Virus record (IMG/VR): IMGVR_UViG_3300020578_000190
Span: 1 to 39,497 of that record
DNA length: 39,497 nucleotides
Direction: 5' to 3' (one strand)
Source of the DNA: a virus
The translations under genes were made by a program, and so were the position numbers. Shown piece after piece: positions 6,006 through 39,025 of the stretch (positions are counted from its first letter, which is position 1; every line of letters begins with the position of its first letter). Under the pieces are notes generated by a model. The model searched no databases. It saw nothing but the letters and a program-made list of their open reading frames with translations, and had not been told where the DNA came from.

Positions 6006-7064
6006 ATGGCAGATTTAAAACCACTTGGTAGCGAGAAGTTACATGGAGATGAAAAATTAAAAAGAATTCTCGAGCTAACTTACTACAATGAAAAGAAAAA
6101 TAAGTCAATATCAACAAAACCTGAATTAATTAAAGAATCTAGTACTGGAGGTGTTTATGGTATTGTAAAAGAAAAAGATGGATACTATGTTAAAAGAGGT
6201 TTGAATGAACAATCACTTGATTATATTGGTGGTATGTTTATGAAAAACAAAAACAAATTTTCATCTTATTCTGAAGCATTAAAAAGACTTGAATTTATTA
6301 AAGGACAAGAAGAATTACAAGAGGCTACAAAATATATTTTAAAACCAAATAAACCTCAAGAGGCTGCACCCGATAAGGGATCGGATGTACCTCCACCTAC
6401 TACAGCTCCTGATATGGGTACAGAAGCATCTCCTCCTGCGGAAAGTGATATGGCTAGTGAACCCGCTCCTGATATGGGTGGTGAACCCGCTCCTGATATG
6501 GGTGGTGAACCCGCTCCTGATATGGGTGGTGAACCCGCTCCTGATATGGGTGGTGAAGAATCTTCAGGGAGTGGTGAGTCTAAAAGATCTGACTACATGG
6601 CAGAAGTTCAAAAATTTGCAGGTAAATTAGGTCAAGAACTCAGAGATCAAAAAGAAAGATTGGAAAGTGATGATATAAAATATGTTTTGAATATGGTTAT
6701 ATCTGCAGTTGACTTGGAAAAGTTAGACTTAGAAGATTTAGAAGAAATAGGTAAAAAATTTGAAAGAGAGAATGAAGAAGGTGGTGAAGATATGGGTTCT
6801 GAAGAACCTGAAAAGCCAGCTGCAGAAGAGCCTGCCTCATCTGAAGAACCATCTGCAGAGGAAAATTTAGGTGAGAAAGATGGTTTAAAATCTTTAGAAG
6901 AGTTAATCAACACGCCATTACAAACACATGAAGTTAATATTGATCAATTTGATGATTTGAGTGAAGGAGATGATCAAGATGATATCAAAGAAGTCGATTT
7001 TGAAAAAATGAAAAATGAAATTAATCAAGCAATTGGTGAAAAATTAAGTAAATATTTTAACTAA
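6006..7064 (+). CDS. Acidic virion-block protein with PAPDMGGE repeats
   Basis: A 352-aa protein of unknown function. The first 115 residues look folded (VYGIVKEKDGYYVKRG, 50-65). A Pro/Glu/Asp-rich linker (116-190) follows, with four near-identical EPAPDMGG units. A helical segment (195-260) comes next, then a second acidic Pro/Ser linker and a C-terminal helical part. The overall charge is strongly acidic. It opens the rightward block that leads into terminase and portal, with two TATTTATA motifs upstream, so a virion or prohead-core role is plausible but inferred from position only. Three bases separate it from the next gene. Confidence 0.7.
   Translation: MADLKPLGSEKLHGDEKLKRILELTYYNEKKNKSISTKPELIKESSTGGVYGIVKEKDGYYVKRGLNEQSLDYIGGMFMKNKNKFSSYSEALKRLEFIKGQEELQEATKYILKPNKPQEAAPDKGSDVPPPTTAPDMGTEASPPAESDMASEPAPDMGGEPAPDMGGEPAPDMGGEPAPDMGGEESSGSGESKRSDYMAEVQKFAGKLGQELRDQKERLESDDIKYVLNMVISAVDLEKLDLEDLEEIGKKFERENEEGGEDMGSEEPEKPAAEEPASSEEPSAEENLGEKDGLKSLEELINTPLQTHEVNIDQFDDLSEGDDQDDIKEVDFEKMKNEINQAIGEKLSKYFN
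6459..6554 (+). repeat. Four tandem 24-base repeats (in frame)
   Basis: The unit GAACCCGCTCCTGATATGGG plus TGGT occurs four times head to tail with essentially no divergence, encoding EPAPDMGG. The unit is a multiple of three, so slippage would lengthen or shorten the linker without a frameshift. Near-identity at the DNA level points to recent expansion. Confidence 0.9.
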
Positions 7065-9772: not shown

Positions 9773-9780
9773 TATTTATA
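9773..9780 (+). promoter_or_regulatory. TATTTATA motif before terminase
   Basis: An exact octamer preceded by TG, ending three bases before ATG 9784. If it is a -10-like late element, transcription would begin at or next to the start codon, giving a leaderless message. Confidence 0.4.
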
Positions 9781-9783
9781 AGT

Positions 9784-11559
9784 ATGAATACTAAAATAGA
9801 ACAATTAAAAGAATATGCTCGTATCATAAAAGATGCTCCATATGCTTTAAAAACATATTTACAAACTTACGATAATACACAAAAAAAATATGTTCCGTTA
9901 GAATTGTTTCCTGATCAAATACAATTAATAAAAGATTACGAAGAATTTAATGAGAATATTACAAGAAAATATAGACAAGCTGGTGTATCAACTGTAACCG
10001 CCGCTTGGATTTCGAAAAAATTACAAACTGCAAAACCCGAAAATCCTGAAAGGGTTTTGATTATTGCAAACAAAAGAGATACCGCTATTGAGATGGCAAA
10101 TAAGGTTCGCCATTTTTTAGATCAGTGGCCTGATTGGATTAATGTTGGTTTCCATCCTGATAAAAATTCTGAAAGTAGATTTAGATTAAATAATGGTTGT
10201 GAAGTTAAAGCGGTCGCAACTTCATCAGATGCCTTACGTGGTTATACACCAACAATTCTTATATTTGATGAGGCCGCATATATTGAAGCAGGTGAAGACT
10301 TTTGGGCTGCATCAATGGCGTCATTATCAACAGGTGGTAAAATTATATTAATTTCTACACCAAATGGTTATGATCAAATATACTTCGGTGTATATGACCA
10401 AGCAATACGTGGAAAAAACGATTTTCATATAACAGAATTGAGATGGTTTAAAGATCCTCGTTATACAAAAGATTTAAAATGGATTAAATGTAATGATATT
10501 GTTCATTATATGTTAAATAGAGAACAATATAATGATGATGAGGTTGTTATTCATGATTATGAAATAGAAAAATATCGAGAGTATGAAGAAATGGGATATA
10601 AACCATTTTCATCTTGGTTTGAATCAATGGCGAAAAAATTTAAATACGATAGACGTAAAATTGCTCAAGAAATTGAGTGTGACTTTTTAGGTTCAGGAGA
10701 TGGTATTATACCTTCCGATATTCAGGATAATATAGCTAAGAATATGATTAGACAACCTATAGAAAAATATATGCAAGGAACTTTATGGCAATGGAAAGAA
10801 CCCATAGCGGGTCATCGTTATATTATGGGTGTTGATGTTAGTAGAGGTGATAGTGAAGATTTTTCATCTATTAATATTGTAGATTTTGATGAAAGAGAAC
10901 AAGTTTTAGAGTACATAGGTAAAATACCACCAGATGATTTAGCTGCAGTTGCATATAAATGGGGTGTTTTATATGATTCTTTTATTGTTGTTGATATAAC
11001 CGGTGGTATGGGAATTGCAACTTCAAGAAAATTGCAAGAGATGAATTATAAAAATTTATTTATTGATGGAATAAACGTTCAAAATGTTTGGGAATGGGAC
11101 AAGAAGAAATTAGAAAAAATACCCGGTATTAATTTTAATAATAAGAGAACACAAATAATTGCAGCATTTGAGGAACAAGTTAGAAAGGGTTTTATAATCA
11201 GATCAAATAGATTATTGAATGAACTTAATACTTTTGTTTATATAAATGGTAGGCCTGATCATATGAAAGGTTCACATGACGATTCTATTATGAGTTTATC
11301 TATAGCTCTTTATGCTGGTGATATATCATTTAATCAATTACAAAGAAATACTGCAAAAAATATTGCTATGATGGAATCATGGACTTTAGCAGAAAGAACA
11401 TATGAACCAAATAAATCATTTTATTCTTATGGAACCGCTTTTGACCAAATAGGTCCGATGCAGATGAATAATAATGGGACTTATTATCCAAACAAAACAA
11501 ACAGTCTTTCTAAAAACTTATATCAAGAATATAGTTGGTTATTTTCAAAACCAAAATAA
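9784..11559 (+). CDS. Large terminase subunit (gp17/TerL-like)
   Basis: The DNA-packaging motor ATPase and headful nuclease, 591 aa. The ATPase half shows an atypical Walker A RQAGVST (64-70), Walker B ILIFDEA (158-164) and the STPNG coupling motif (191-195). The nuclease half has the RNase H-like acidic set D351 in MGVDVSRGD, D404 in IVVDITGG and the HDD pair at 498-500. T4 gp17 is about 610 aa, so this is full length. I prefer ATG 9784 to an in-frame ATG at 9751: the extra 11 residues look unlike the family, and the TATTTATA motif falls between the two. No small terminase is recognisable in the window. The portal gene follows after 53 bases. Confidence 0.93.
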   Translation: MNTKIEQLKEYARIIKDAPYALKTYLQTYDNTQKKYVPLELFPDQIQLIKDYEEFNENITRKYRQAGVSTVTAAWISKKLQTAKPENPERVLIIANKRDTAIEMANKVRHFLDQWPDWINVGFHPDKNSESRFRLNNGCEVKAVATSSDALRGYTPTILIFDEAAYIEAGEDFWAASMASLSTGGKIILISTPNGYDQIYFGVYDQAIRGKNDFHITELRWFKDPRYTKDLKWIKCNDIVHYMLNREQYNDDEVVIHDYEIEKYREYEEMGYKPFSSWFESMAKKFKYDRRKIAQEIECDFLGSGDGIIPSDIQDNIAKNMIRQPIEKYMQGTLWQWKEPIAGHRYIMGVDVSRGDSEDFSSINIVDFDEREQVLEYIGKIPPDDLAAVAYKWGVLYDSFIVVDITGGMGIATSRKLQEMNYKNLFIDGINVQNVWEWDKKKLEKIPGINFNNKRTQIIAAFEEQVRKGFIIRSNRLLNELNTFVYINGRPDHMKGSHDDSIMSLSIALYAGDISFNQLQRNTAKNIAMMESWTLAERTYEPNKSFYSYGTAFDQIGPMQMNNNGTYYPNKTNSLSKNLYQEYSWLFSKPK

Positions 11560-11601: not shown

Positions 11602-11609
11602 TATTTATA
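11602..11609 (+). promoter_or_regulatory. TATTTATA motif before portal
   Basis: An exact octamer ending three bases before the portal ATG at 11613, the same arrangement as at terminase. Confidence 0.4.
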
Positions 11610-11612
11610 TAC

Positions 11613-13412
11613 ATGGCGGATCTAAATTTGACAGTTTTTCAGAAATTAACGAGAATGTTTGGATTTCCTGGTCAAAGTAAACCAGAAAAAACTCCTTCTT
11701 TTAATTTTAGTAAAGATGAATTATTAAAAACTGATAACAGAGAAGAATTTCAAAAACAACTTCTTCAAGCACAACAATCTCAATATATTTCGGACAAGTG
11801 GACAAAACTTGACCAATCGCTTTACAATCAATCGGTTTATTATGAGCCTAATAGATTGGCTGCGTATTATGACTATGAATCTATGGAGTTCACACCAGAA
11901 ATATCCGCATCACTTGACATTTATGCAGAGGAGTCTACTACATTATCTGAAAAGGGTGATATATTAACAATCTATTCTGAATCGGATAGAGTTAAATCTA
12001 TTTTAGAAGATTTATTTAATGATAGATTAGATATCAATACAAATTTACAAATGTGGGCTCGTGGATTGTGTAAGTATGGTGATAATTTTGTTTATTTGAA
12101 AATTGATCCACAAAAAGGTATCGTAGGATGTCAACAATTACCGAATATTGAAATTGAAAGAGTTGAGGGTGCAACTTCAAAACCTGTGTCTGATACAGAA
12201 AAAACACCGAATCGTGAATTAAGATTTATGTGGAAAAACAAAGACATAGAATTTCAGGCATGGGAAATTGGACATTTTAGATTATTGGGTGATGATAGAA
12301 AACTTCCATATGGGACTTCTATGTTAGATAAGATTAGAAGAATATGGAAACAACTTTTACTTGCTGAAGATGCAATGTTAATTTACAGAACATCAAGAGC
12401 ACCCGAAAGAAGAGTCTTCAAAATATTTGTTGGTAATATGGACGATAAGGATATTGAACCTTATGTTCAACGTGTTGCAAATAAATTTAAAAGAGATCAA
12501 ATTTCTGATCCAAGAACAGGTCAAGTTGATATGAGATATAATCAAATGGCTGTAGATCAGGATTTCTTTATTCCTGTAAGAGACCCTGCACAATCAAATC
12601 CAATTGAAACATTGGCTGGTGCACAGAACTTAGGTGAAATTGCCGATATTGAATACATTCAAAAGAAACTTTTAGCTGCATTAAGAATACCTAAAGCATT
12701 TTTAGGTTTTGAAGAAGTTGTTGGTGAAGGTAAAAGTTTAGCGTTAATGGATATTCGTTTTGCAAGAACTATTAACAGAATACAAAAATCATTAATTCAA
12801 GAATTGAATAAAATAGCATTAGTTCACCTTTATCTCTTAGGATTGGAAGATGAATTAAATAATTTTTCATTATCGTTAACTAATCCATCTGCACAATCTG
12901 ATTTGTTACGTCTTGAACAGTGGAAGGAAAAAATAACACTATATAAAGACGCTACTTCAGACCAATCTCAAATAGGTATATTACCGGTTTCTCATACATG
13001 GGCAAAGAAAAATATTCTTGGTTTGAGTGATAACGAAGTAATATTGGATCTACAACAACAACGTCTTGAAAGAGCAATGGGATTTGAATTAACAAATACA
13101 CAAAATGTAATTAAACGTAGTGGAATTTTCGATGAGGTTGACTCTAAGTATGGTATACCCGAAGAAGAAAGGAAGAAAATGGAAGATGCAGGTGGGGCAG
13201 CACCTTCTGCAGGAGGAATGGCACCAGATGGGGCAGTACCAACAATTCCACCAGCAGGTGGAAGTGAACCTTTAAGTGAAACAAAAAAATCAAAAATATT
13301 AGGTATGTTGGGAAAAGAAAATTTGAAATTTGAAGATTTATTTGACATGGATAAAGCCCAACACAATATTTATGAAATAGAAACAAAAATAAAAGACATA
13401 TTAAACGATTAG
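11613..13412 (+). CDS. Portal protein (gp20-like)
   Basis: The dodecameric portal through which DNA is packaged and ejected, 599 aa; T4 gp20 is 524 aa. The T4-family core is clear: AAYYDYESMEFTPEISASLD (83-102), a conserved ARGLCKYGDNFVYLKID segment around 145-165, and RAPERRVFKIFVG near 265. The extra length is mainly a C-terminal Ala/Gly/Pro-rich linker (about 525-560) followed by a short helical tail that ends KIKDILND. It lies between terminase and an unassigned gene, as in T4-type head clusters. Two bases separate it from the next gene, so the pair is co-transcribed. Confidence 0.93.
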   Translation: MADLNLTVFQKLTRMFGFPGQSKPEKTPSFNFSKDELLKTDNREEFQKQLLQAQQSQYISDKWTKLDQSLYNQSVYYEPNRLAAYYDYESMEFTPEISASLDIYAEESTTLSEKGDILTIYSESDRVKSILEDLFNDRLDINTNLQMWARGLCKYGDNFVYLKIDPQKGIVGCQQLPNIEIERVEGATSKPVSDTEKTPNRELRFMWKNKDIEFQAWEIGHFRLLGDDRKLPYGTSMLDKIRRIWKQLLLAEDAMLIYRTSRAPERRVFKIFVGNMDDKDIEPYVQRVANKFKRDQISDPRTGQVDMRYNQMAVDQDFFIPVRDPAQSNPIETLAGAQNLGEIADIEYIQKKLLAALRIPKAFLGFEEVVGEGKSLALMDIRFARTINRIQKSLIQELNKIALVHLYLLGLEDELNNFSLSLTNPSAQSDLLRLEQWKEKITLYKDATSDQSQIGILPVSHTWAKKNILGLSDNEVILDLQQQRLERAMGFELTNTQNVIKRSGIFDEVDSKYGIPEEERKKMEDAGGAAPSAGGMAPDGAVPTIPPAGGSEPLSETKKSKILGMLGKENLKFEDLFDMDKAQHNIYEIETKIKDILND

Positions 13413-13414
13413 AA

Positions 13415-14152
13415 ATGAATACTTTTGGCTCAGTTAAAACAAAAATATTACAAAAATTATTGGAATCTTACAGATCTCAAAATAAAGATGAAATGAAAGA
13501 CATTATTAAAACTATAAGTTCAAATAAGGATTTCAAAGAAATGTATTTGTTTTATGAAGAAGTGGAGAATAAATATATTGGAGATAATGATGTTGCCAGA
13601 ATATATGTAGAGGAACTCACATCAATTTTAAAAAATAAGTTCATTACAATAAAAGAATTTTGTAAGACATTAAATGAAAAAATTGGTGATGTAGAGATAT
13701 CAGAAAATGAATTATATACAAATTTAGATCAATTATTATTAGAGGATAGTTTAACGAATATAGAAAATAAAGTTATCGCCAAAAGAAAACTTTATGAACA
13801 TTTAACAACAGTAAAAGAAGTTACTAATGTAAGTAAAAATTTACACACTATTCATGAAAATTTATTGAATTCAGTGTTGGCAAATAATTTTAATGTATTA
13901 TATAGTAATTCATTAAACGAGGAACAAAAAACACTTTTGAAATCTATATTATCATTATCTACTGATGAATTGAAAACTAAATTAAGTGAAGTTAAAGAAT
14001 CACTTATTACAAAAATAGATTTATTATTAGTTGAATCAACAGACGATACATTTAAATCAAAACTTCAAAATGTAAAAAGTGAGGTATCTAATATGGATAC
14101 ATCGAAATTTAACTACTATAGATTACTTGAATTAAAAAATGATCTAAATTAA
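13415..14152 (+). CDS. Hypothetical helical protein between portal and protease
   Basis: A 245-aa, Lys/Glu/Leu/Asn-rich, probably all-helical protein with repeated Leu heptad-like spacing (for example LLNSVLANNFNVLYSNSL, about 151-168). No family is recognised. In T4 the corresponding slot holds the prohead-core genes 67 and 68, so a core or chaperone function is a positional hypothesis only; it is much longer than gp67. It starts two bases after the portal stop and converges on the bS21 gene, with two bases between the two stop codons. Confidence 0.65.
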   Translation: MNTFGSVKTKILQKLLESYRSQNKDEMKDIIKTISSNKDFKEMYLFYEEVENKYIGDNDVARIYVEELTSILKNKFITIKEFCKTLNEKIGDVEISENELYTNLDQLLLEDSLTNIENKVIAKRKLYEHLTTVKEVTNVSKNLHTIHENLLNSVLANNFNVLYSNSLNEEQKTLLKSILSLSTDELKTKLSEVKESLITKIDLLLVESTDDTFKSKLQNVKSEVSNMDTSKFNYYRLLELKNDLN

Positions 14153-14154
14153 GG

Positions 14155-14337
14155 TTATTTTTTAATTTTTTGAATGTAAATCGCTTTTAGAATTTCTTCC
14201 CTTCTTTTGACAGATTGTTTCACATATGTTTGTCTTTCTCTTAACATTTGAATCTGTTTTGTTCTTTGAACCTTTTGTTTATAAATTCTTAATGCAGACT
14301 CAATGTTTTTTTCTTTATTAACTTCAACTATGATCAT
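14155..14337 (-). CDS. rpsU: Ribosomal protein bS21 (phage-encoded)
   Basis: A 60-aa protein that aligns along its whole length with Bacteroidetes bS21: MIIVEVNKEKNIESALRIYK at the start, then RTKQ, LRERQTYVKQSVKRRE and the end KAIYIQKIKK. bS21 sits on the 30S platform next to the 3' end of 16S rRNA. In Flavobacterium ribosomes bS21, with bS18 and bS6, buries the anti-Shine-Dalgarno sequence. Tyr54 of this protein falls in the C-terminal AIYIQK block that is conserved in Bacteroidetes bS21. The gene points against the surrounding head genes and has its own host-type promoter. Its leader lacks the strong Shine-Dalgarno sequence reported for flavobacterial rpsU. It is full length with no broken residues, so likely functional. 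Confidence 0.92.
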   Translation of the reverse strand: MIIVEVNKEKNIESALRIYKQKVQRTKQIQMLRERQTYVKQSVKRREEILKAIYIQKIKK

Positions 14338-14353
14338 ATCAATAATTATATTA

Positions 14354-14384
14354 CAAATATATTAAAAATTTTTTTGTTTTTAAA
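14354..14384 (-). promoter_or_regulatory. Host-type promoter for bS21
   Basis: Read leftward: TTTA (complement of 14381-14384), a 19-base spacer, then TATATTTG (complement of 14354-14361). The -7 is a perfect TAnnTTTG and the -33 differs from TTTG at one base. Transcription would start about 10-15 bases before ATG 14337. No purine-rich Shine-Dalgarno sequence is present in the leader. Confidence 0.6.
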
Positions 14385-14437
14385 ATATTATTTAGTATAT
14401 TTTAAAAGCACCATAAAATATATAATATGAAATATTG

Positions 14438-14863
14438 ATGAAAACAGGAAAGTATATCCATTTAGGATCATACAAAAACGTGAAGATTGGCTACGGAACA
14501 GTAGACTATAAAAATTTAAAAACAATTTATTTAAAATTAAATTCTTGGTTAAAACCCGAAAATGATACGGATAATTTTGATTATACAATTTTAAGATCAA
14601 AAAGAAAAATTAAAGAAATAATACACGATTTAAAAAATCAAAATTTTAAAAAACAATCAATAGTTGATTTAGATATAAGAACAAAGAGTATCAAATTAGA
14701 AAAAAGGTCTTTTATGAATTTGGAAATAACATTATACGTTGATAAACAATTTGATGTTAAATCAAAAGATATTAAAAATTTAGTTAAAGACGTTTTAGAA
14801 CAAATTATTAATCACGGTTTGGAAAACAAAGAATTGTTTAATTTCTACAAAACAAAAAAATAA
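14438..14863 (+). CDS. Hypothetical protein, 141 aa
   Basis: A basic protein of unknown function. The start MKTGKYIHLGSYKNVKIGYG suggests beta strands. A Lys-rich helical middle follows, and the second half (IVDLDIRTKSIKLEKRSFMNLEITLYV) looks alpha/beta. I use ATG 14438; the TTG codon just before it would add one residue. It occupies the position of T4 gene 68 (a prohead-core protein) between portal and protease, but I see no sequence similarity that I would rely on. It is divergent from bS21, with 100 AT-rich bases between them. Confidence 0.6.
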   Translation: MKTGKYIHLGSYKNVKIGYGTVDYKNLKTIYLKLNSWLKPENDTDNFDYTILRSKRKIKEIIHDLKNQNFKKQSIVDLDIRTKSIKLEKRSFMNLEITLYVDKQFDVKSKDIKNLVKDVLEQIINHGLENKELFNFYKTKK

Positions 14864-14877
14864 TTCCGATTATGATG

Positions 14878-14885
14878 TATTTATA
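14878..14885 (+). promoter_or_regulatory. TATTTATA motif before prohead protease
   Basis: An exact octamer preceded by TG, 19 bases before ATG 14905. This spacing would allow a short leader. Confidence 0.45.
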
Positions 14886-14904: not shown

Positions 14905-15588
14905 ATGAGGGTACTAGGACCAAATGAGACGGGCAAAGGAATTTTAATTGAATATGATGCTGGTCACATATCTCCCGAAGATAATAAAAAAATTATTTCT
15001 GAAATGAAGGATGTTGACTTTTCACAAGACATCGTCCTTTATGCTGTTTTACAAAAATTTGATACTCCAAACAAAAACGGAAGAATATATCCTGAGGTAT
15101 TACTAAAAAGAGAAAACGAAAAGTATCAATCACTAATTAAAAAGGGTGGAGCTTTAAACGAACTTAATCATCCTTCTTCTTCACTTATCGATTTAGATAG
15201 AGTCTCACATTCAATTTTAGAAACATGGTGGGATGGAAAAATGTTAATGGGTAAAATAAAATTATTTACTTCACCAGGTTGGAAAAAAATGGGTATAGTA
15301 TCAACAAAAGGTGATCAAGCAGCTATGTTGCTTATGAATGGTGCTACATTGGGAATATCATCTCGTGGAGTTGGTTCTTTAAAAACTGTAAAAGGTGAAA
15401 ATGTTGTTCAAGATGATTTCGAATTAGTTTGTTTCGATTTAGTTTCATCACCCTCTACACCCGGTGCATACATCTTCAAAGATCCCTCTGAAAGAGAACA
15501 ATATCAAGAACATATTGATGAAAAACCTATAGTAGACGACAGAATGAAAAAATTAATGGGAAATTTAGATAGATTTTTATCTAAATAA
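14905..15588 (+). CDS. Prohead maturation protease (gp21-like)
   Basis: The T4-type serine protease that cleaves scaffold, capsid and internal head proteins, 227 aa; T4 gp21 is 212 aa. Family features are NKNGRIYP (56-63), the catalytic His89 in ELNHP, and the catalytic Ser in LGISSRGVGS (149-158). The strand VCFDLVSSPSTPGA (175-188) follows, as in the family. The C-terminal tail carries RMKKLM (213-218), a peptide also found at the C-termini of the scaffold and two other proteins here. Gene order protease-scaffold-capsid is that of T4 21-22-23. A TATTTATA motif lies 19 bases upstream. Confidence 0.93.
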   Translation: MRVLGPNETGKGILIEYDAGHISPEDNKKIISEMKDVDFSQDIVLYAVLQKFDTPNKNGRIYPEVLLKRENEKYQSLIKKGGALNELNHPSSSLIDLDRVSHSILETWWDGKMLMGKIKLFTSPGWKKMGIVSTKGDQAAMLLMNGATLGISSRGVGSLKTVKGENVVQDDFELVCFDLVSSPSTPGAYIFKDPSEREQYQEHIDEKPIVDDRMKKLMGNLDRFLSK

Positions 15589-15641: not shown

Positions 15642-15649
15642 TATTTATA
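15642..15649 (+). promoter_or_regulatory. TATTTATA motif before scaffold
   Basis: An exact octamer 19 bases before ATG 15669, the same spacing as before the protease gene. Confidence 0.45.
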
Positions 15650-15668: not shown

Positions 15669-17060
15669 ATGAGTGAAAAATCCATTTTAGAACAAGCCCT
15701 ACTTCAAGTTCAAACACTAGAAGAGGCAGTGAAGCAAAATGCAAAAGGTATACTTGCATCTACAATGAAGCAGGAACTAAACGAGTTGCTTAAAGAATCA
15801 CAAGTGGGAGAAGAGGAAAAGGTTGATAATATTGCAGAAGAAAATTCTAATGCAGAATTAAAAGAACAACCCGATCCTGAAGAAGAGGAAAAAGATGATA
15901 TGTCAGACGAAGATGAGGCCGATGATGAAGAGGCTGACGATGACTCTGAAAATGATGACGACCTCGATAATGAACCCAAAAAAGGAATCGACGATGTTAA
16001 TTCAGATGATGAATTAGACACAGATGATGAGATGGGATCAGATGATGAGATGGGATCAGATGATGAACCAATGTCGGCTGATGATCTCGGACCGTCAGTC
16101 GATGACGATGACGTTATGGACATGACCGGTGCAACAGATGATGAAGTATTAAAAGTTTTCAAGGCAATGAAACCAGAAGATGGTATTGTTGTTAAGAAAG
16201 ACGGTAATCAACTTGACGTTGACATGGGTGACGATGAGTATATCATCAAACTTGACGACGATTCTACTGAGGAAGAAACTTCTATGGAGGAAGTCAAAAA
16301 CCCTGAAAAAGATTGTAATGAGGAAGACTCTTCTTTAGAAGAAGAGACAATTTATGAAATTGAATTAGGTGAAGAAGACGAATTCACAGAAGAAAAGGAA
16401 CCAAAAGAAGAAAAGGAACCAAAAGAAGAAAAGGAACCAAAAGAAGAAAAGGAACCAAAAGAAGAAAAGGAACCTAAAGAAGAAAAGGAACCAAAAGAAG
16501 AAAAGGAACCAAAAGAAGAAAAGGAACCTAAAGAAGGGTCAATTGTTAAAAAAATTGAAGCAACTGAGGCTTCAAGAACTAAATCAAATCCACATGGTAA
16601 TAAAGGTGAAGCAAAAAGAGCTGGTTTACCAAGTAAGAAGGTATTCAAAGCGGGTTCAGGTGTATTTGGTATAAACGAAGAAGTTGAAATCTTGAAAAAA
16701 CAAAATGAAGAATATAAAAAGGCATTAGTGTTATTCAAGGATAAACTTAATGAGGTTGCCGTTTTCAATGCAAGTTTGGCGTATGCTACTCGATTATTTA
16801 CAGAACATTCTACAACAAAACAAGAGAAATTGAACATTTTAAAGAGATTTGATTCAATTTCTAATATAAATGAGGCTAAAAACTTATTTAATTCAATAAA
16901 AAGCGAACTCGAAACAAAAAAACCTGTAACCGAGTCTGTAGTTGAAAAAATCTCTACCACTCCTCAACCTTCAAGTTCTCAAGAAATGTTGGCAGAAGCT
17001 AAAGCTTATGAAAATCCACAATTCAAAAGAATGAAAGATTTGATGAGTAAAATAAAATAA
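15669..17060 (+). CDS. Prohead scaffold/core protein (gp22-like)
   Basis: Assigned from position (between protease and capsid) and composition. The 463-aa protein has a helical start (MSEKSILEQALLQVQTLEEAV), a long Asp/Glu region (about 45-240), eight EKEPKE units (242-289), and a C-terminal coiled coil from FGINEEVEILKKQNEEYKKAL onward. T4 gp22 is about 270 aa; the added length is mostly the acidic low-complexity region and repeats. It ends QFKRMKDLMSKIK, sharing R-M-K-x-L-M with the protease tail. It is expected to form the prohead core and be degraded by the protease during maturation. The capsid gene follows after 28 bases with no promoter motif, so the two are probably co-transcribed. 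Confidence 0.82.
   Translation: MSEKSILEQALLQVQTLEEAVKQNAKGILASTMKQELNELLKESQVGEEEKVDNIAEENSNAELKEQPDPEEEEKDDMSDEDEADDEEADDDSENDDDLDNEPKKGIDDVNSDDELDTDDEMGSDDEMGSDDEPMSADDLGPSVDDDDVMDMTGATDDEVLKVFKAMKPEDGIVVKKDGNQLDVDMGDDEYIIKLDDDSTEEETSMEEVKNPEKDCNEEDSSLEEETIYEIELGEEDEFTEEKEPKEEKEPKEEKEPKEEKEPKEEKEPKEEKEPKEEKEPKEEKEPKEGSIVKKIEATEASRTKSNPHGNKGEAKRAGLPSKKVFKAGSGVFGINEEVEILKKQNEEYKKALVLFKDKLNEVAVFNASLAYATRLFTEHSTTKQEKLNILKRFDSISNINEAKNLFNSIKSELETKKPVTESVVEKISTTPQPSSSQEMLAEAKAYENPQFKRMKDLMSKIK
16392..16535 (+). repeat. Eight tandem 18-base repeats (in frame)
   Basis: The unit GAAAAGGAACCAAAAGAA occurs eight times; two copies have CCT instead of CCA for Pro. It encodes EKEPKE. The unit keeps frame, so copy-number changes are tolerated. 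The repeats create long Ser-rich antisense and Lys-rich frame-shifted open frames that are not genes. Confidence 0.92.
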
Positions 17061-17088: not shown

Positions 17089-18810
17089 ATGGGAGCATTA
17101 TTAGAATCAGGTATGGTTGGTAACATCGGTCTTAAGCACCTTCGTGTTATCAAAGAAGATACCATTAAAAAATGGGATGACCTCGGTTTCTTAGAGGGAT
17201 TAGAAGGTCATCAAAAAGATAACATCGCACAATTATATGAAAACCAAGCGTCTTATTTAATCAACGAAGCAGCTGTTGCTGATGCGTCTGGTTCTTTCGA
17301 GACTGTTGTTTTCCCTATCATTCGTCGTGTTTTCTCTAAATTATTAGCTAACGATATCGTTTCAGTTCAAGCAATGAACTTACCTATCGGTAAATTATTC
17401 TACTTTATTCCAAAAATATTGGATAGAGTTGGAACACATCATACAGAACCATTTGGTTATCCATCATCAAGAACTAACACAACTGGTTACACAGATTCAA
17501 GAAGTCTTTATGACAGATTCTATGAAGGTTCTGATGATGCGGATGAAGGTCTGTTCGACTATTCAAAAGGAAAATACTCTGCAGAAACTTTATCGGCTGA
17601 CGCAGTTGTAACTTTCTCTAACGGCGCCGCCGCTGACGTAACATTCCCTAACGCTTTAACAGGATCAACTCAATCATCAGTAATATTGATGTTTTCGGGT
17701 TTCACAAAAGACGGTCAAGGAAAGTTAATCGGACCTAATGGTAACGCAATGGATACAGAAGAATTTTTAGCATCAGCTGAAGTAAAACTTTCAGGTGTTT
17801 CTAAAAACTTCAATGTTGTTACTCAAAAATATGGTAAAGGTATTGTTGAATACGGTTCAAAAGCAACTAAGTCAACTTTCCCTTCAGGTAGATTTGATGA
17901 CATTTGTGATGAAGATGGTAAAATTTATGTTAGTGTAGATTTACAATCTTATTCAAGCTCATCAGGTTTCTCTAACGCAACAATCAACGCAGGTGCGGTT
18001 ATCGGTGATTTCACATTAACATTTAGAACTTATGATTCTTTAGAATTTGAAGAGGAAATTGGTGAGGTGTCTTTTGATCTTCAATCAGTAACAGTTTCTG
18101 TAACTGAAAGAAAGTTAAGAGCTAGCTGGTCTCCAGAATTAGCACAGGACGTATCTGCATTCCATAACATAGATGCTGAAGCTGAATTAACAGCTTTATT
18201 ATCTGAGCAAATCGCCGCTGAGGTTGACCGTGAAATTTTACGTGACCTTAGAAAAGGTGCTGCTTGGACATCTAAGTGGGATTACAATGAGTGGAAGTAT
18301 GGTGCGACTGGTAACACTCCATTCTTGGGTTATACTCAAAAGGATTGGAACCAAACGTTAATCACAAAGATTAACCAAATTTCAGCTCAAATCCATAAAA
18401 CTACATTAAGAGGTGGTGCAAACTGGGTTGTTGTTTCTTCAGAAGTATCTGCAGTATTCGATGATTTAGAATATTTCCACGTATCTAACGCAGCTCCTGA
18501 GCAAGATCAATACAACATGGGTATCGAGAAAATCGGTTCTCTTGCTGGTAGATATCAAGTATATCGTGATCCTTACTTTCCAGCTGGTAAAATCTTAATT
18601 GGTCACAAGGGTAAATCATTATTGGACGCTGGTTACATCTATGCTCCATATGTACCTTTACAATTAACTCCAACAATGTACAATCCATTTAACTTTACTC
18701 CAATCAAGGGTATCATGACTAGATACGCTAAGAAAATGGTTAACAACCGTTACTTTGGTGTAATCAATGTAAGTGGTTTACAAACATTCAGTTTGGATAC
18801 TTTAAGATAA
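17089..18810 (+). CDS. Major capsid protein (gp23-like)
   Basis: The hexamer-forming capsid subunit, 573 aa; T4 gp23 is 521 aa. The N-terminus matches the T4 family: a helical prodomain (1-60) with NIAQLYENQASYLINEAAVA, then ETVVFPIIRRVFSKLLANDIVSVQAMN (71-97) and PIGKLFYF. The likely gp21-type cleavage is I-N-E60/A61, close to the position used in T4. A mid-protein insertion (about 180-340, Ser/Thr/Gly-rich) probably forms an outer domain. The C-terminal body includes the EREILRDL-like segment VDREILRDLRKG and KIGSLAGRYQVYRDPYFPAGKILIG. Codons are visibly less AT-rich than in neighbours, as expected for the most highly expressed gene. A strong terminator follows. Confidence 0.95.
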   Translation: MGALLESGMVGNIGLKHLRVIKEDTIKKWDDLGFLEGLEGHQKDNIAQLYENQASYLINEAAVADASGSFETVVFPIIRRVFSKLLANDIVSVQAMNLPIGKLFYFIPKILDRVGTHHTEPFGYPSSRTNTTGYTDSRSLYDRFYEGSDDADEGLFDYSKGKYSAETLSADAVVTFSNGAAADVTFPNALTGSTQSSVILMFSGFTKDGQGKLIGPNGNAMDTEEFLASAEVKLSGVSKNFNVVTQKYGKGIVEYGSKATKSTFPSGRFDDICDEDGKIYVSVDLQSYSSSSGFSNATINAGAVIGDFTLTFRTYDSLEFEEEIGEVSFDLQSVTVSVTERKLRASWSPELAQDVSAFHNIDAEAELTALLSEQIAAEVDREILRDLRKGAAWTSKWDYNEWKYGATGNTPFLGYTQKDWNQTLITKINQISAQIHKTTLRGGANWVVVSSEVSAVFDDLEYFHVSNAAPEQDQYNMGIEKIGSLAGRYQVYRDPYFPAGKILIGHKGKSLLDAGYIYAPYVPLQLTPTMYNPFNFTPIKGIMTRYAKKMVNNRYFGVINVSGLQTFSLDTLR

Positions 18811-18895: not shown

Positions 18896-19210
18896 ATGAC
18901 TGAGGTTGATTACAGTAAATTAAGACAGGATGTCCTTGAAAAGATGATATACCAAAGAGGTATTGAGTGTAAAATGAAAAAGGACGAAATGGTTAAAATG
19001 TTAAAACTATATGATGAGGGAAAATATAGTCAACCACAGAGAGAAACCATTTACACTAAAGATGGAGAAGGTTATAATGTAGGTATAGACTTAAGAAATA
19101 AAGAACATATTTTACAAGTCAGTAAAATAATAGAAAAAAAAGAAGGTAAATCATTAAACAGATTTGCAGAAGATAGAATTTGGTATTGGATACCACAAAA
19201 ATTATTATGA
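18896..19210 (+). CDS. Hypothetical protein upstream of dCMP deaminase, 104 aa
   Basis: Function unknown. The first 40 residues (LRQDVLEKMIYQRGIECKMKKDEMVKMLKLYDEGKY) have the helix-loop-helix spacing of SAP-type DNA-binding motifs, with the GIECKMKKDEMVKML part closest. The second half (NVGIDLRNKEHILQVSKIIEK) looks like a separate small module ending with W-x-x-P (YWIPQKLL). It is the first gene of a two-gene operon and overlaps the deaminase start by four bases (ATGA). The SAP suggestion is only from spacing and hydrophobic pattern. Confidence 0.65.
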   Translation: MTEVDYSKLRQDVLEKMIYQRGIECKMKKDEMVKMLKLYDEGKYSQPQRETIYTKDGEGYNVGIDLRNKEHILQVSKIIEKKEGKSLNRFAEDRIWYWIPQKLL

Positions 19211-27400: not shown

Positions 27401-28099
27401 TTATTCCAAAAATCCACCTAAAATACCGTCATAGAGAATTTTAAACCTTTTAAGAGATATTCTTATTTCTTTAGTAGAAAGAGATGTCATTTCTCTTAAC
27501 GACAATAATATTAGGTTTTTATTGAATTTATTACCATCTCCAACCTGAAATATTTTATCAAAATTGCTGAAAATTTCAAGTAATGCGTATCCTAATTTTT
27601 GTTCGTTGTCTGTTAATTCTTCCGTTTCAATAAATTTTTCCAAAGAAATCGTTAACTTAATTATAACGTCTCTGTGATCAATAACGTGTTCGTCGATAGT
27701 GTAAGATAATGCGGGATTATCCTCCATATCTGATGAAATGTCATCATATGAAACACTTCTATTTTGTTCCTTAGTGTCTTTTTGGATGGCACCCATAAGA
27801 TAATTCTTGCATATTGTTCCAAAATATGAATACGCTTTATGATTTTTTGTTGGGTCGAATTTGTTAATCTTAGTGATTAAAAAAGACATTGTATCCGTAT
27901 GTATGTCTTCAAATTCGAAATCTTTTCTGTAAAGTTTATAACGTCGAATAATTGATTCGACCATTATAATTAGGGGTTCTCTTAAATATTCGTTGAATAT
28001 CTTATTCTTTTCTACCTCGGATTCAGATGTTAAATATCTTTTTACCGCTTGTTCTTGATCCTCCCCAAAATATATTCTTTGGATCCTTTTTCTCGGCAT
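27401..28099 (-). CDS. Late sigma factor, gp55-like
   Basis: A 232-aa protein resembling T4 gp55, the sigma that directs host RNA polymerase to late promoters. The region-2-like core runs from about 40 to 115: IRRYKLYRKDFEFEDI, then KINKFDPTKNHKAYSYF, then the basic NYLMGAIQKDTKEQ that would read the -10 element. T4 gp55 is 185 aa and has the equivalent FDETKYKNPHAY block. A second helical region (150-225) with the SLREMTSLSTKEIRISLKRF helix-turn-helix-like stretch could be a reduced region 4. Classical region 4 DNA-binding is not clear. The gene's start overlaps the glycosyltransferase stop by one base. Confidence 0.75.
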   Translation of the reverse strand: MPRKRIQRIYFGEDQEQAVKRYLTSESEVEKNKIFNEYLREPLIIMVESIIRRYKLYRKDFEFEDIHTDTMSFLITKINKFDPTKNHKAYSYFGTICKNYLMGAIQKDTKEQNRSVSYDDISSDMEDNPALSYTIDEHVIDHRDVIIKLTISLEKFIETEELTDNEQKLGYALLEIFSNFDKIFQVGDGNKFNKNLILLSLREMTSLSTKEIRISLKRFKILYDGILGGFLE

Positions 28100-37258: not shown

Positions 37259-39025
37259 ATGAATATCCAAAATATTTTAAGATCTTATGGGTCTAAATTA
37301 GATATAAAACTAGATTCCTCGGAATTCTATGATTATACAATTGGTAAAGTTGAGACTGACTATGACGTAGATGTATTAGATTTATCAACACCCATAAATT
37401 ATACAACACTAAAAATTAACCAATCTCTAAATGGTGCTTCTTGTTCAAGAAACACAATATATTTGATCGAATATGACAATTCTGTAAACGATTTAGACTA
37501 CAAATACTCAGGACTAACGGCTTGTATTGATTATGATAATTTTATTGATCATTTTGAAACAAATTATGAGTATACAATTTTAAATAATCAAATTTTTTCA
37601 TTTACAGGTATAACAGATGAAACCCATTATTTTAGGATATCGGCCTATAATGAAAATTTAACTATACATACAGGATTTAGTGTCACAAATGAAGCAGAAT
37701 TATTAAGTGGTTTTACAAAAAATAGAATAAGATGTTTAAATAAATTAGCAAACTTACAAGCATGCTGTCCAATCACTTCAACACTTAACAACAAACCGTG
37801 GGCATATCAATTTAAACAAAATGACTTAAATAATTGCACTTCTGATATCATTCAAAGAAGACCAGAAAAAGGATGGACTTTAGATTTTATTTTTAATAGA
37901 AATAGTTTACCGTGGACAAGTGGTGGTGTTTTTTACTACTATGGTGTTAGGGGTTCAGATACGTCTTCAGCATATGCAGACAATAATTTGTCTTTTAAAT
38001 TCACTTCCGATAGAAGAATTAAATGGGTTGCTCATCATTATTCGGGATATTGTAATACAACAACAGGTTATGATGAAAGTTATTACATAAGTTCAGGTCA
38101 AACACCACAATTGTGCACAACAGGTGAAACTAAAGATTTCAACATAACAATAACATTCGACAGATATTCAAGGTATACTGATTGTGATTTAGAAAACAAA
38201 GGAGGATGGAACGATATGTTAGGTTGGGTTATTAGTGATTATCAAGATACAGAAGTGTCTGCTGTAACGTCCACTCAATTATCAACTTATGAAAGTGAGT
38301 CAGAATTTTTAAATAAAAAATGGACAGATGAAAGAAACAGAAGACTTGGAACTTTAAAGATTTATTTAAATGGTAGACCCATTTACAAATTAGAAAATTG
38401 GGAAGAAATTGTTCCTTCAAATAGGGGAACACAACCATTTATACAATCATGGGGTGGTGGAACAGGTCTTATGGGTAATATTCATAATGGTGTTTGTTGT
38501 TTTAATATTAAATCAATAAAATATTATGAAGAACCATTAGGTTTCATTCATGTTAGACATAACTTCTTAACAAGGTTGGATGATTATGATTTTGCCATAT
38601 GTGGAGAAAAGTGTGAAGATGAAATTACAGGATTAATTACACCAACTCCTACACCAACAGCAACGGAAACTCCTACGCCAACAGCAACTCCTACACCAAC
38701 AGCAACGGAAACTCCTACACCAACAGCAACTCCTACGCCAACAGCAACGGAAACTCCTACGCCAACAGCAACTCCTACACCAACAGCAACTCCTACACCA
38801 ACAATTACGCAATCAATTTCATGTTTCTGTTATGTAGTATCAAACACCACTTTTTCACCTGAGTATTTTACGTACACTGATTGTGTGACTCAAGAACTAA
38901 TTTCTTTTAACTTATCCGCAGGAGGAACAATATCACGTTGTTCTTCTACGATTCCGATTGCAAATCCTGGTGTAATTGTTACGGGTGGTACAGAACCGTG
39001 TTCTAATTTATTTGATTGTATTTGA
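37259..39025 (+). CDS. Adhesin or tail-fibre-like protein with Thr-Pro linker
   Basis: A 588-aa, Thr/Asn/Tyr-rich protein. The first 190 residues look beta-rich. About 200-445 resembles a concanavalin/LamG-type sandwich (WTLDFIFNRNSLPW, then LGTLKIYLNGRPIYKLENW and QSWGGGTGLMGNI). Residues about 461-515 are a Thr-Pro-Ala-Glu repeat, followed by a small Cys-containing C-terminal domain (SCFCYVVSN, FTYTDCVTQE and the end NLFDCI). More than a dozen Cys residues occur overall, high for this window. No signal peptide is visible. A virion protein that binds a host glycan is the natural reading. A TATTTATA motif is five bases upstream. Confidence 0.7.
   Translation: MNIQNILRSYGSKLDIKLDSSEFYDYTIGKVETDYDVDVLDLSTPINYTTLKINQSLNGASCSRNTIYLIEYDNSVNDLDYKYSGLTACIDYDNFIDHFETNYEYTILNNQIFSFTGITDETHYFRISAYNENLTIHTGFSVTNEAELLSGFTKNRIRCLNKLANLQACCPITSTLNNKPWAYQFKQNDLNNCTSDIIQRRPEKGWTLDFIFNRNSLPWTSGGVFYYYGVRGSDTSSAYADNNLSFKFTSDRRIKWVAHHYSGYCNTTTGYDESYYISSGQTPQLCTTGETKDFNITITFDRYSRYTDCDLENKGGWNDMLGWVISDYQDTEVSAVTSTQLSTYESESEFLNKKWTDERNRRLGTLKIYLNGRPIYKLENWEEIVPSNRGTQPFIQSWGGGTGLMGNIHNGVCCFNIKSIKYYEEPLGFIHVRHNFLTRLDDYDFAICGEKCEDEITGLITPTPTPTATETPTPTATPTPTATETPTPTATPTPTATETPTPTATPTPTATPTPTITQSISCFCYVVSNTTFSPEYFTYTDCVTQELISFNLSAGGTISRCSSTIPIANPGVIVTGGTEPCSNLFDCI
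38641..38802 (+). repeat. Thr-Pro coding tandem repeats
   Basis: Nested in-frame units, ACTCCTACACCAACAGCAAC with an optional GGAA insertion, repeat across about 160 bases and encode TPTPTA and TPTPTATE. Copies differ only by A/G in one Pro codon. The array forms the linker before the C-terminal Cys domain of the adhesin-like protein and is prone to copy-number change. Confidence 0.9.

Follow-up and report, generated by a model that had tools for sequence, protein, structure and literature searches.

A phage bS21 gene without a Shine-Dalgarno sequence that might fill Bacteroidota ribosomes and silence host bS21 synthesis

bS21 is the ribosomal protein most commonly found in phages, and the reason for its carriage is unsettled. 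In 47 Bacteroidetes jumbo phages of a lake phage family, with genomes of 293-331 kb and assigned to clades a-e, Chen et al. 2022 (PMC9723584) described a bS21 gene that lies reversed within the genes for the large terminase subunit (TerL), portal, protease and major capsid protein (MCP) and is flanked by two hypothetical genes. Its product carries Tyr54 or another aromatic residue and diverges in the N-terminal helix, and the authors proposed that the phage protein takes the place of host bS21 in ribosomes. On the host side, most genes of the Flavobacteriales lack a Shine-Dalgarno (SD) sequence, rpsU typically being the sole gene with a strong one (PMC9976891), and McNutt et al. 2023 (PMC9976891), who also discussed phage bS21, reported that host bS21 is autoregulated via this extended SD by ribosomes lacking bS21. 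In the ribosome of F. johnsoniae, Tyr54 of bS21 stacks on A1534 (PMC9976891). Furthermore, Mizuno et al. 2019 (PMC6375957) found that 70S ribosomes of E. coli take up bS21 of the pelagiphage HTVC008M. The layout, Tyr54, the Bacteroidetes hosts, late expression and the idea of ribosome takeover were thus already published between 2019 and 2023, while Chen et al. 2022 (PMC9723584) appear to report no comparison of promoters or of the rpsU SD. The Bacteroidota provide a sharp test for the role of phage bS21, since here strong SDs are nearly absent from the genome apart from the one through which host bS21 controls its own synthesis.

The stretch analysed here (the window) is a virus record of 39,497 bases, that is, a 39.5-kb fragment of a phage whose relatives are found on contigs of 335,630 and 286,785 bases. 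It contains a T4-type head block in which the genes for the terminase large subunit (9784-11559, plus strand; Pfam Terminase_6N, PHROG 5989) and the gp20-like portal protein (11613-13412, plus; Pfam Portal_T4, E 6.7e-75) are followed by a hypothetical gene (13415-14152, plus), the reversed bS21 gene (14155-14337, minus), a second hypothetical gene (14438-14863, plus), the prohead protease gene (14905-15588, plus; Pfam Peptidase_S77, E 3.3e-21), a gene for a long acidic protein and that for the gp23-like major capsid protein (17089-18810, plus; Pfam Gp23, E 5.6e-74). Short in-frame repeats (PAPDMGGE, EPKEEKE and TPTPTATET) occur in acidic or Pro/Thr-rich proteins encoded at 6006-7064, 15669-17060 and 37259-39025. 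bS21 runs antiparallel to the portal, protease and capsid block, convergent with 13415-14152 across a gap of 2 nt and divergent from 14438-14863; the original prediction, which saw it placed head-on against the head genes, is therefore right for the preceding gene but not for the next one. The convergent gene flanks bS21 in relatives as well, and its product matched nothing in Pfam or PHROG. A profile scan of IMG/VR for bS21 relatives confirmed 215 places, of which the best 80 were kept. bS21 occupied the strand opposite its neighbours in 202 of 202 loci, overlapping ones counted, and every one of the 144 portal loci that extended far enough contained both bS21 and the divergent neighbour; since either set includes several loci per contig, these counts are not independent. 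In Microcystis phage Mel-JY01, whose portal is related to that of the window (41% identity over 69% of the query), a sense-strand bS21 gene (L298:10557-10784) lies between the protease and capsid genes.

The 60-aa product of 14155-14337 matches Pfam PF01165 (Ribosomal_S21) with an E-value of 1.4e-11 and 44.3 bits, above the curated cut-off of 27 bits, as well as PHROG 21469. Among solved structures, its best match is bS21 of F. johnsoniae (PDB 7JIL; E 1.1e-9), to which it aligns from residue 1-59 to residue 1-59, Tyr54 of its AIYIQK block falling on Tyr54 of the F. johnsoniae protein. The aromatic residue expected at position 54 of an anti-SD-sequestering, Bacteroidia-type bS21 is thus present, as originally predicted. 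To call the protein full-length agrees with its colinearity over 59 residues but is slightly generous, as most relatives continue into an NGL tail that is missing here after residue 60, and F. johnsoniae bS21 comprises 64 aa. The gene is under purifying selection in the family of the window phage, with a median pN/pS of about 0.17 among relatives. The structure predicted for the protein folded alone, a single long helix with a pTM of 0.41, was uninformative.

The feature that most clearly separates the phage gene from its host counterpart lies in the leader. When GGAG, GAGG or GGGGG within the last 25 bases was taken as an SD core, 78 of 79 distinct Flavobacteriaceae-type host rpsU leaders possessed one, as against 0 of 98 distinct bS21 leaders of the window phage family; the extended SD of autoregulated Flavobacteriales rpsU was likewise missing from the window leader and from all 98. 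In the lone host leader without a core (L238), the start had been called upstream of the true start. The host leaders were drawn with a host-based profile, a search of genome contigs with the phage bS21 profile having recovered no hosts, and the rpsU rule was checked in Flavobacteriaceae-type genomes only. Within the window, a GGAG or GAGG core was found before none of the 47 genes searched, bS21 included, which agrees with the original prediction that the bS21 leader and most phage genes lack an SD. Other Bacteroidota-type phage bS21 lineages mostly lack it too. A universal absence from phage bS21 genes is nevertheless ruled out by two related leaders: the 735-kb uncultured phage LR756501 (also L301) and the IMG/VR contig L302 carry AAAGGAGG and AAGGAGGT, respectively, directly before bS21, so that this huge-phage lineage has kept AAGGAGG on bS21, whereas almost all neighbouring ORFs are without an SD. 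In a bS21 tree of 63 columns with rough support, both proteins fall on the phage side beside the window family and away from hosts. Because these related leaders keep the SD among neighbours that mostly have none, the window family appears to have lost it; retention in one lineage and loss in the other is a simpler reading than regain. Comparatively, then, the leaders support the prediction that the phage copy escapes SD-based autoregulation. However, the loss may have been passive, the absence of an SD being the default state of Bacteroidota genes, and phage bS21 does not in general depend on such an escape, given the two related phage leaders that retain the signal.

Comparison of 71 distinct host bS21 sequences, essentially from one family, with 93 distinct ones of the phage family revealed a set of near-fixed differences in the N-terminal half (positions 5, 9, 10, 14, 18, 21, 23, 24, 27, 28 and 30), some of which may reflect lineage given the narrow host set. 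K40, S42 and R46 are common to both groups, and K51, A52 and Y54 nearly so, while in the C-terminal half the host Q50 is mostly Leu in phages. Tyr54 at the anti-SD pocket, whose alteration would have spoken against the original prediction, is unchanged, with Tyr in 90 and His in 3 of the 93 phage proteins. This clustering of changes in the N-terminal half, next to a shared core (about residues 40-46, 51-52 and 54), is what would be expected if phage bS21 made translation selective, as suggested by Chen et al. 2022, the changed helix altering mRNA entry such that phage late messages are preferred; the helix was indeed mapped to where mRNA would bind (PMC9723584). Since SDs are missing from phage and host genes alike (PMC9976891), the altered N-terminal helix would have to be the source of any selectivity between them, yet phage leaders are not known to carry a feature of their own that bS21 reads, and part of the divergence could be lineage, so that we consider selective translation improbable. 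The same consideration weakens the earlier argument that a hidden anti-SD favours phage genes: with most Flavobacteriales genes also devoid of an SD (PMC9976891), hiding the anti-SD does not in itself favour phage over host, and its predictable victim is host rpsU.

The bS21 gene was further predicted to possess a host-type promoter and to act early. A host-type -7 box (TAnnTTTG), TATATTTG, is present at 14354-14361 on the minus strand, starting 24 bases before the ATG, and is conserved in 50 of 81 distinct family leaders, compared with 0.4 expected from shuffles and 0 in antisense orientation. The host -33 box TTTG, in contrast, reads TTTA in the window and is not conserved in relatives, most of which have CCAAAA upstream in its place; only the -7 half of the predicted promoter thus stands. 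A different element, TATTTATA, precedes the portal gene (11602-11609, plus) and the protease gene (14878-14885, plus) and recurs at 9773-9780, 15642-15649 and in other leaders, before late genes on both strands, amounting to 10 of 26 intergenic leaders of the window versus 1.0 in shuffles. Among relatives it occurs, in sense orientation only, before the terminase (54/60), portal (67/70) and protease (49/58) genes, and in two further phages, the isolate Flavobacterium phage immuto and Mel-JY01, it stands before some of the head genes; it is a candidate late promoter. Its distance of 3-4 bases from the ATG of the terminase and portal genes would be odd for a -10 box unless these messages are leaderless. 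A sigma-like protein encoded at 27401-28099 (PHROG late sigma factor, E 4e-5) is a possible reader of TATTTATA.

A weaker form of this element, TA[TCA]TTAT, occurs in 69 of 81 bS21 leaders of relatives versus 22 in shuffles, the best examples lying 4-5 bases before the ATG. bS21 of those relatives that carry TACTTATA or TATTTATC is likely served by a late promoter. For the window this simple assignment was rejected, as its degenerate counterpart TAATTATT (14341-14348, minus), at the site that is just before the ATG in relatives, scored -0.46 against the head-gene element, that is, no match; expression of the window gene may be timed independently. In metatranscriptomes, phages of this kind express bS21 highly, together with the core structural genes, at a late stage (PMC9723584). 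In favour of an early host-takeover factor whose gene host RNA polymerase would transcribe from a promoter of the host type, as first proposed, one could cite the conserved TATATTTG box and, next to the capsid gene, the gene at 18896, whose host-type promoter is complete (TTTG-N19-TATATTTG). Such a factor is nonetheless very unlikely in view of the unconserved -33 box, the late-like element in many relatives' leaders and the grouping of bS21 with late genes in the published RNA (PMC9723584). The gene after the capsid gene in question (18896-19210) is small, has a terminator-like hairpin before its promoter and keeps TATATTTG in 28 of 37 relatives.

The divergent neighbour (14438-14863, 141 aa), which always accompanies bS21 on the opposite strand, is probably the bS21_CN (fam498) of Chen et al., as judged from its position and constant presence with bS21. 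A conserved element, CACCATAAAATA (14409-14420, plus), lies upstream of it, and CCATAAAATA occurs in 38 of 82 distinct leaders of this gene and in none of the shuffles. Its AlphaFold model is confident (pLDDT 89) and matched no solved fold in the PDB at E<0.001; neither a biotin ligase fold, the best but poor PDB match (E 0.0037, TM 0.45), nor DUF3194, a weak Pfam match under its cut-off, was accepted. The model resembles an uncharacterized viral protein, A0A8S5L9A5 (BFVD; Myoviridae sp. ctPuP5; E 4.9e-9, TM 0.81), for which a sequence search of the phage record collection returned no matching record. The constant linkage of bS21 to this neighbour and to the head genes might also betray an extraribosomal role, bS21 being packaged into virions, a possibility raised by Chen et al. 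(PMC9723584), or acting off the ribosome, perhaps together with the neighbour. With the ribosome-binding features including Tyr54 kept, and nothing else indicating packaging, such a role appears extremely unlikely.

Following from these comparisons, we hypothesize that phage bS21, made from an SD-free message, occupies ribosomes poor in bS21 and, by keeping their anti-SD hidden, shuts off host bS21, a reading to which we give an even chance. Phage bS21 would enter host 30S subunits and replace or supplement host bS21, which is plausible by analogy with the pelagiphage bS21 found in E. coli 70S ribosomes (PMC6375957), and its C-terminal part with Tyr54 would retain the 3' tail of the 16S rRNA in the pocket formed by bS21, bS18 and bS6, so that the anti-SD stays hidden. 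Unlike host rpsU, the phage message would not be confined to bS21-deficient ribosomes; because it has no SD, the protein could be produced even while ribosomes are replete. Filling of the bS21-poor ribosomes would remove those that translate the SD-bearing host rpsU, and since ribosomes without bS21 translate rpsU best (PMC9976891), the host's own feedback would then turn off host bS21 synthesis. The ribosome pool would drift toward the phage form, mainly late in infection, during virion protein production. The hypothesis builds on the bS21 homology, Tyr54, the missing SD, the conserved layout and the purifying selection observed here, complemented by late expression (PMC9723584) and autoregulation in F. 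johnsoniae (PMC9976891) from papers on relatives; from these we infer incorporation, the shutdown of host rpsU and a benefit to the phage. Incorporation could also impair ribosomes rather than help them, as the pelagiphage protein, the sole phage bS21 assayed, left E. coli ribosomes with only about 5% activity in vitro (PMC6375957).

More simply, host bS21 might become limiting or be lost in a long jumbo-phage infection, the phage copy merely completing ribosomes of unchanged selectivity. Ribosomes with intact bS21 initiate SD-less messages best (PMC9976891), the C-terminal part is conserved and expression is late in relatives (PMC9723584), all of which would suit such a top-up; but it leaves the near-fixed changes of the N-terminal helix relative to hosts unexplained, and the host already has a feedback that restores bS21, so we regard it as rather unlikely. 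More tentatively than the shutdown of host bS21 itself, we suggest that the window family may have freed bS21 from SD feedback and turned this same feedback against rpsU, without a protease or degradation step; if so, the SD-keeping huge-phage lineage would do the reverse and confine bS21 synthesis to times when the protein is missing from ribosomes. The contrast between SD-bearing hosts, the SD-free window family and a related SD-bearing phage lineage renders the takeover idea testable with reporters in F. johnsoniae. Since the viral bS21 gene is without the start signal that limits the bacterial copy, its product can probably be made without restraint and so come to fill host ribosomes.

With regard to known systems, the window shares the layout and a Bacteroidetes-type bS21 with Tyr54 with the phages of clades a-e (Chen et al. 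2022, PMC9723584), although, as a 39.5-kb fragment, it is likened to them by layout. F. johnsoniae bS21 (7JIL; PMC9976891) belongs to the same family, is colinear over 59 residues and has the same Tyr54, but its N-terminal helix differs from that of the window protein (R21Q, F23V, D24Q and T28Q), and its gene carries an extended SD and is autoregulated, whereas the window gene has no SD. The bS21 of pelagiphage HTVC008M is phage-encoded like that of the window, yet of the alphaproteobacterial type, and strongly reduced the activity of E. coli ribosomes (PMC6375957). Finally, bS21 of LR756501, 55% identical to the window protein and on the same phage side of the tree, is encoded, like that of L302, by a gene that keeps a strong SD, which the window gene lacks.
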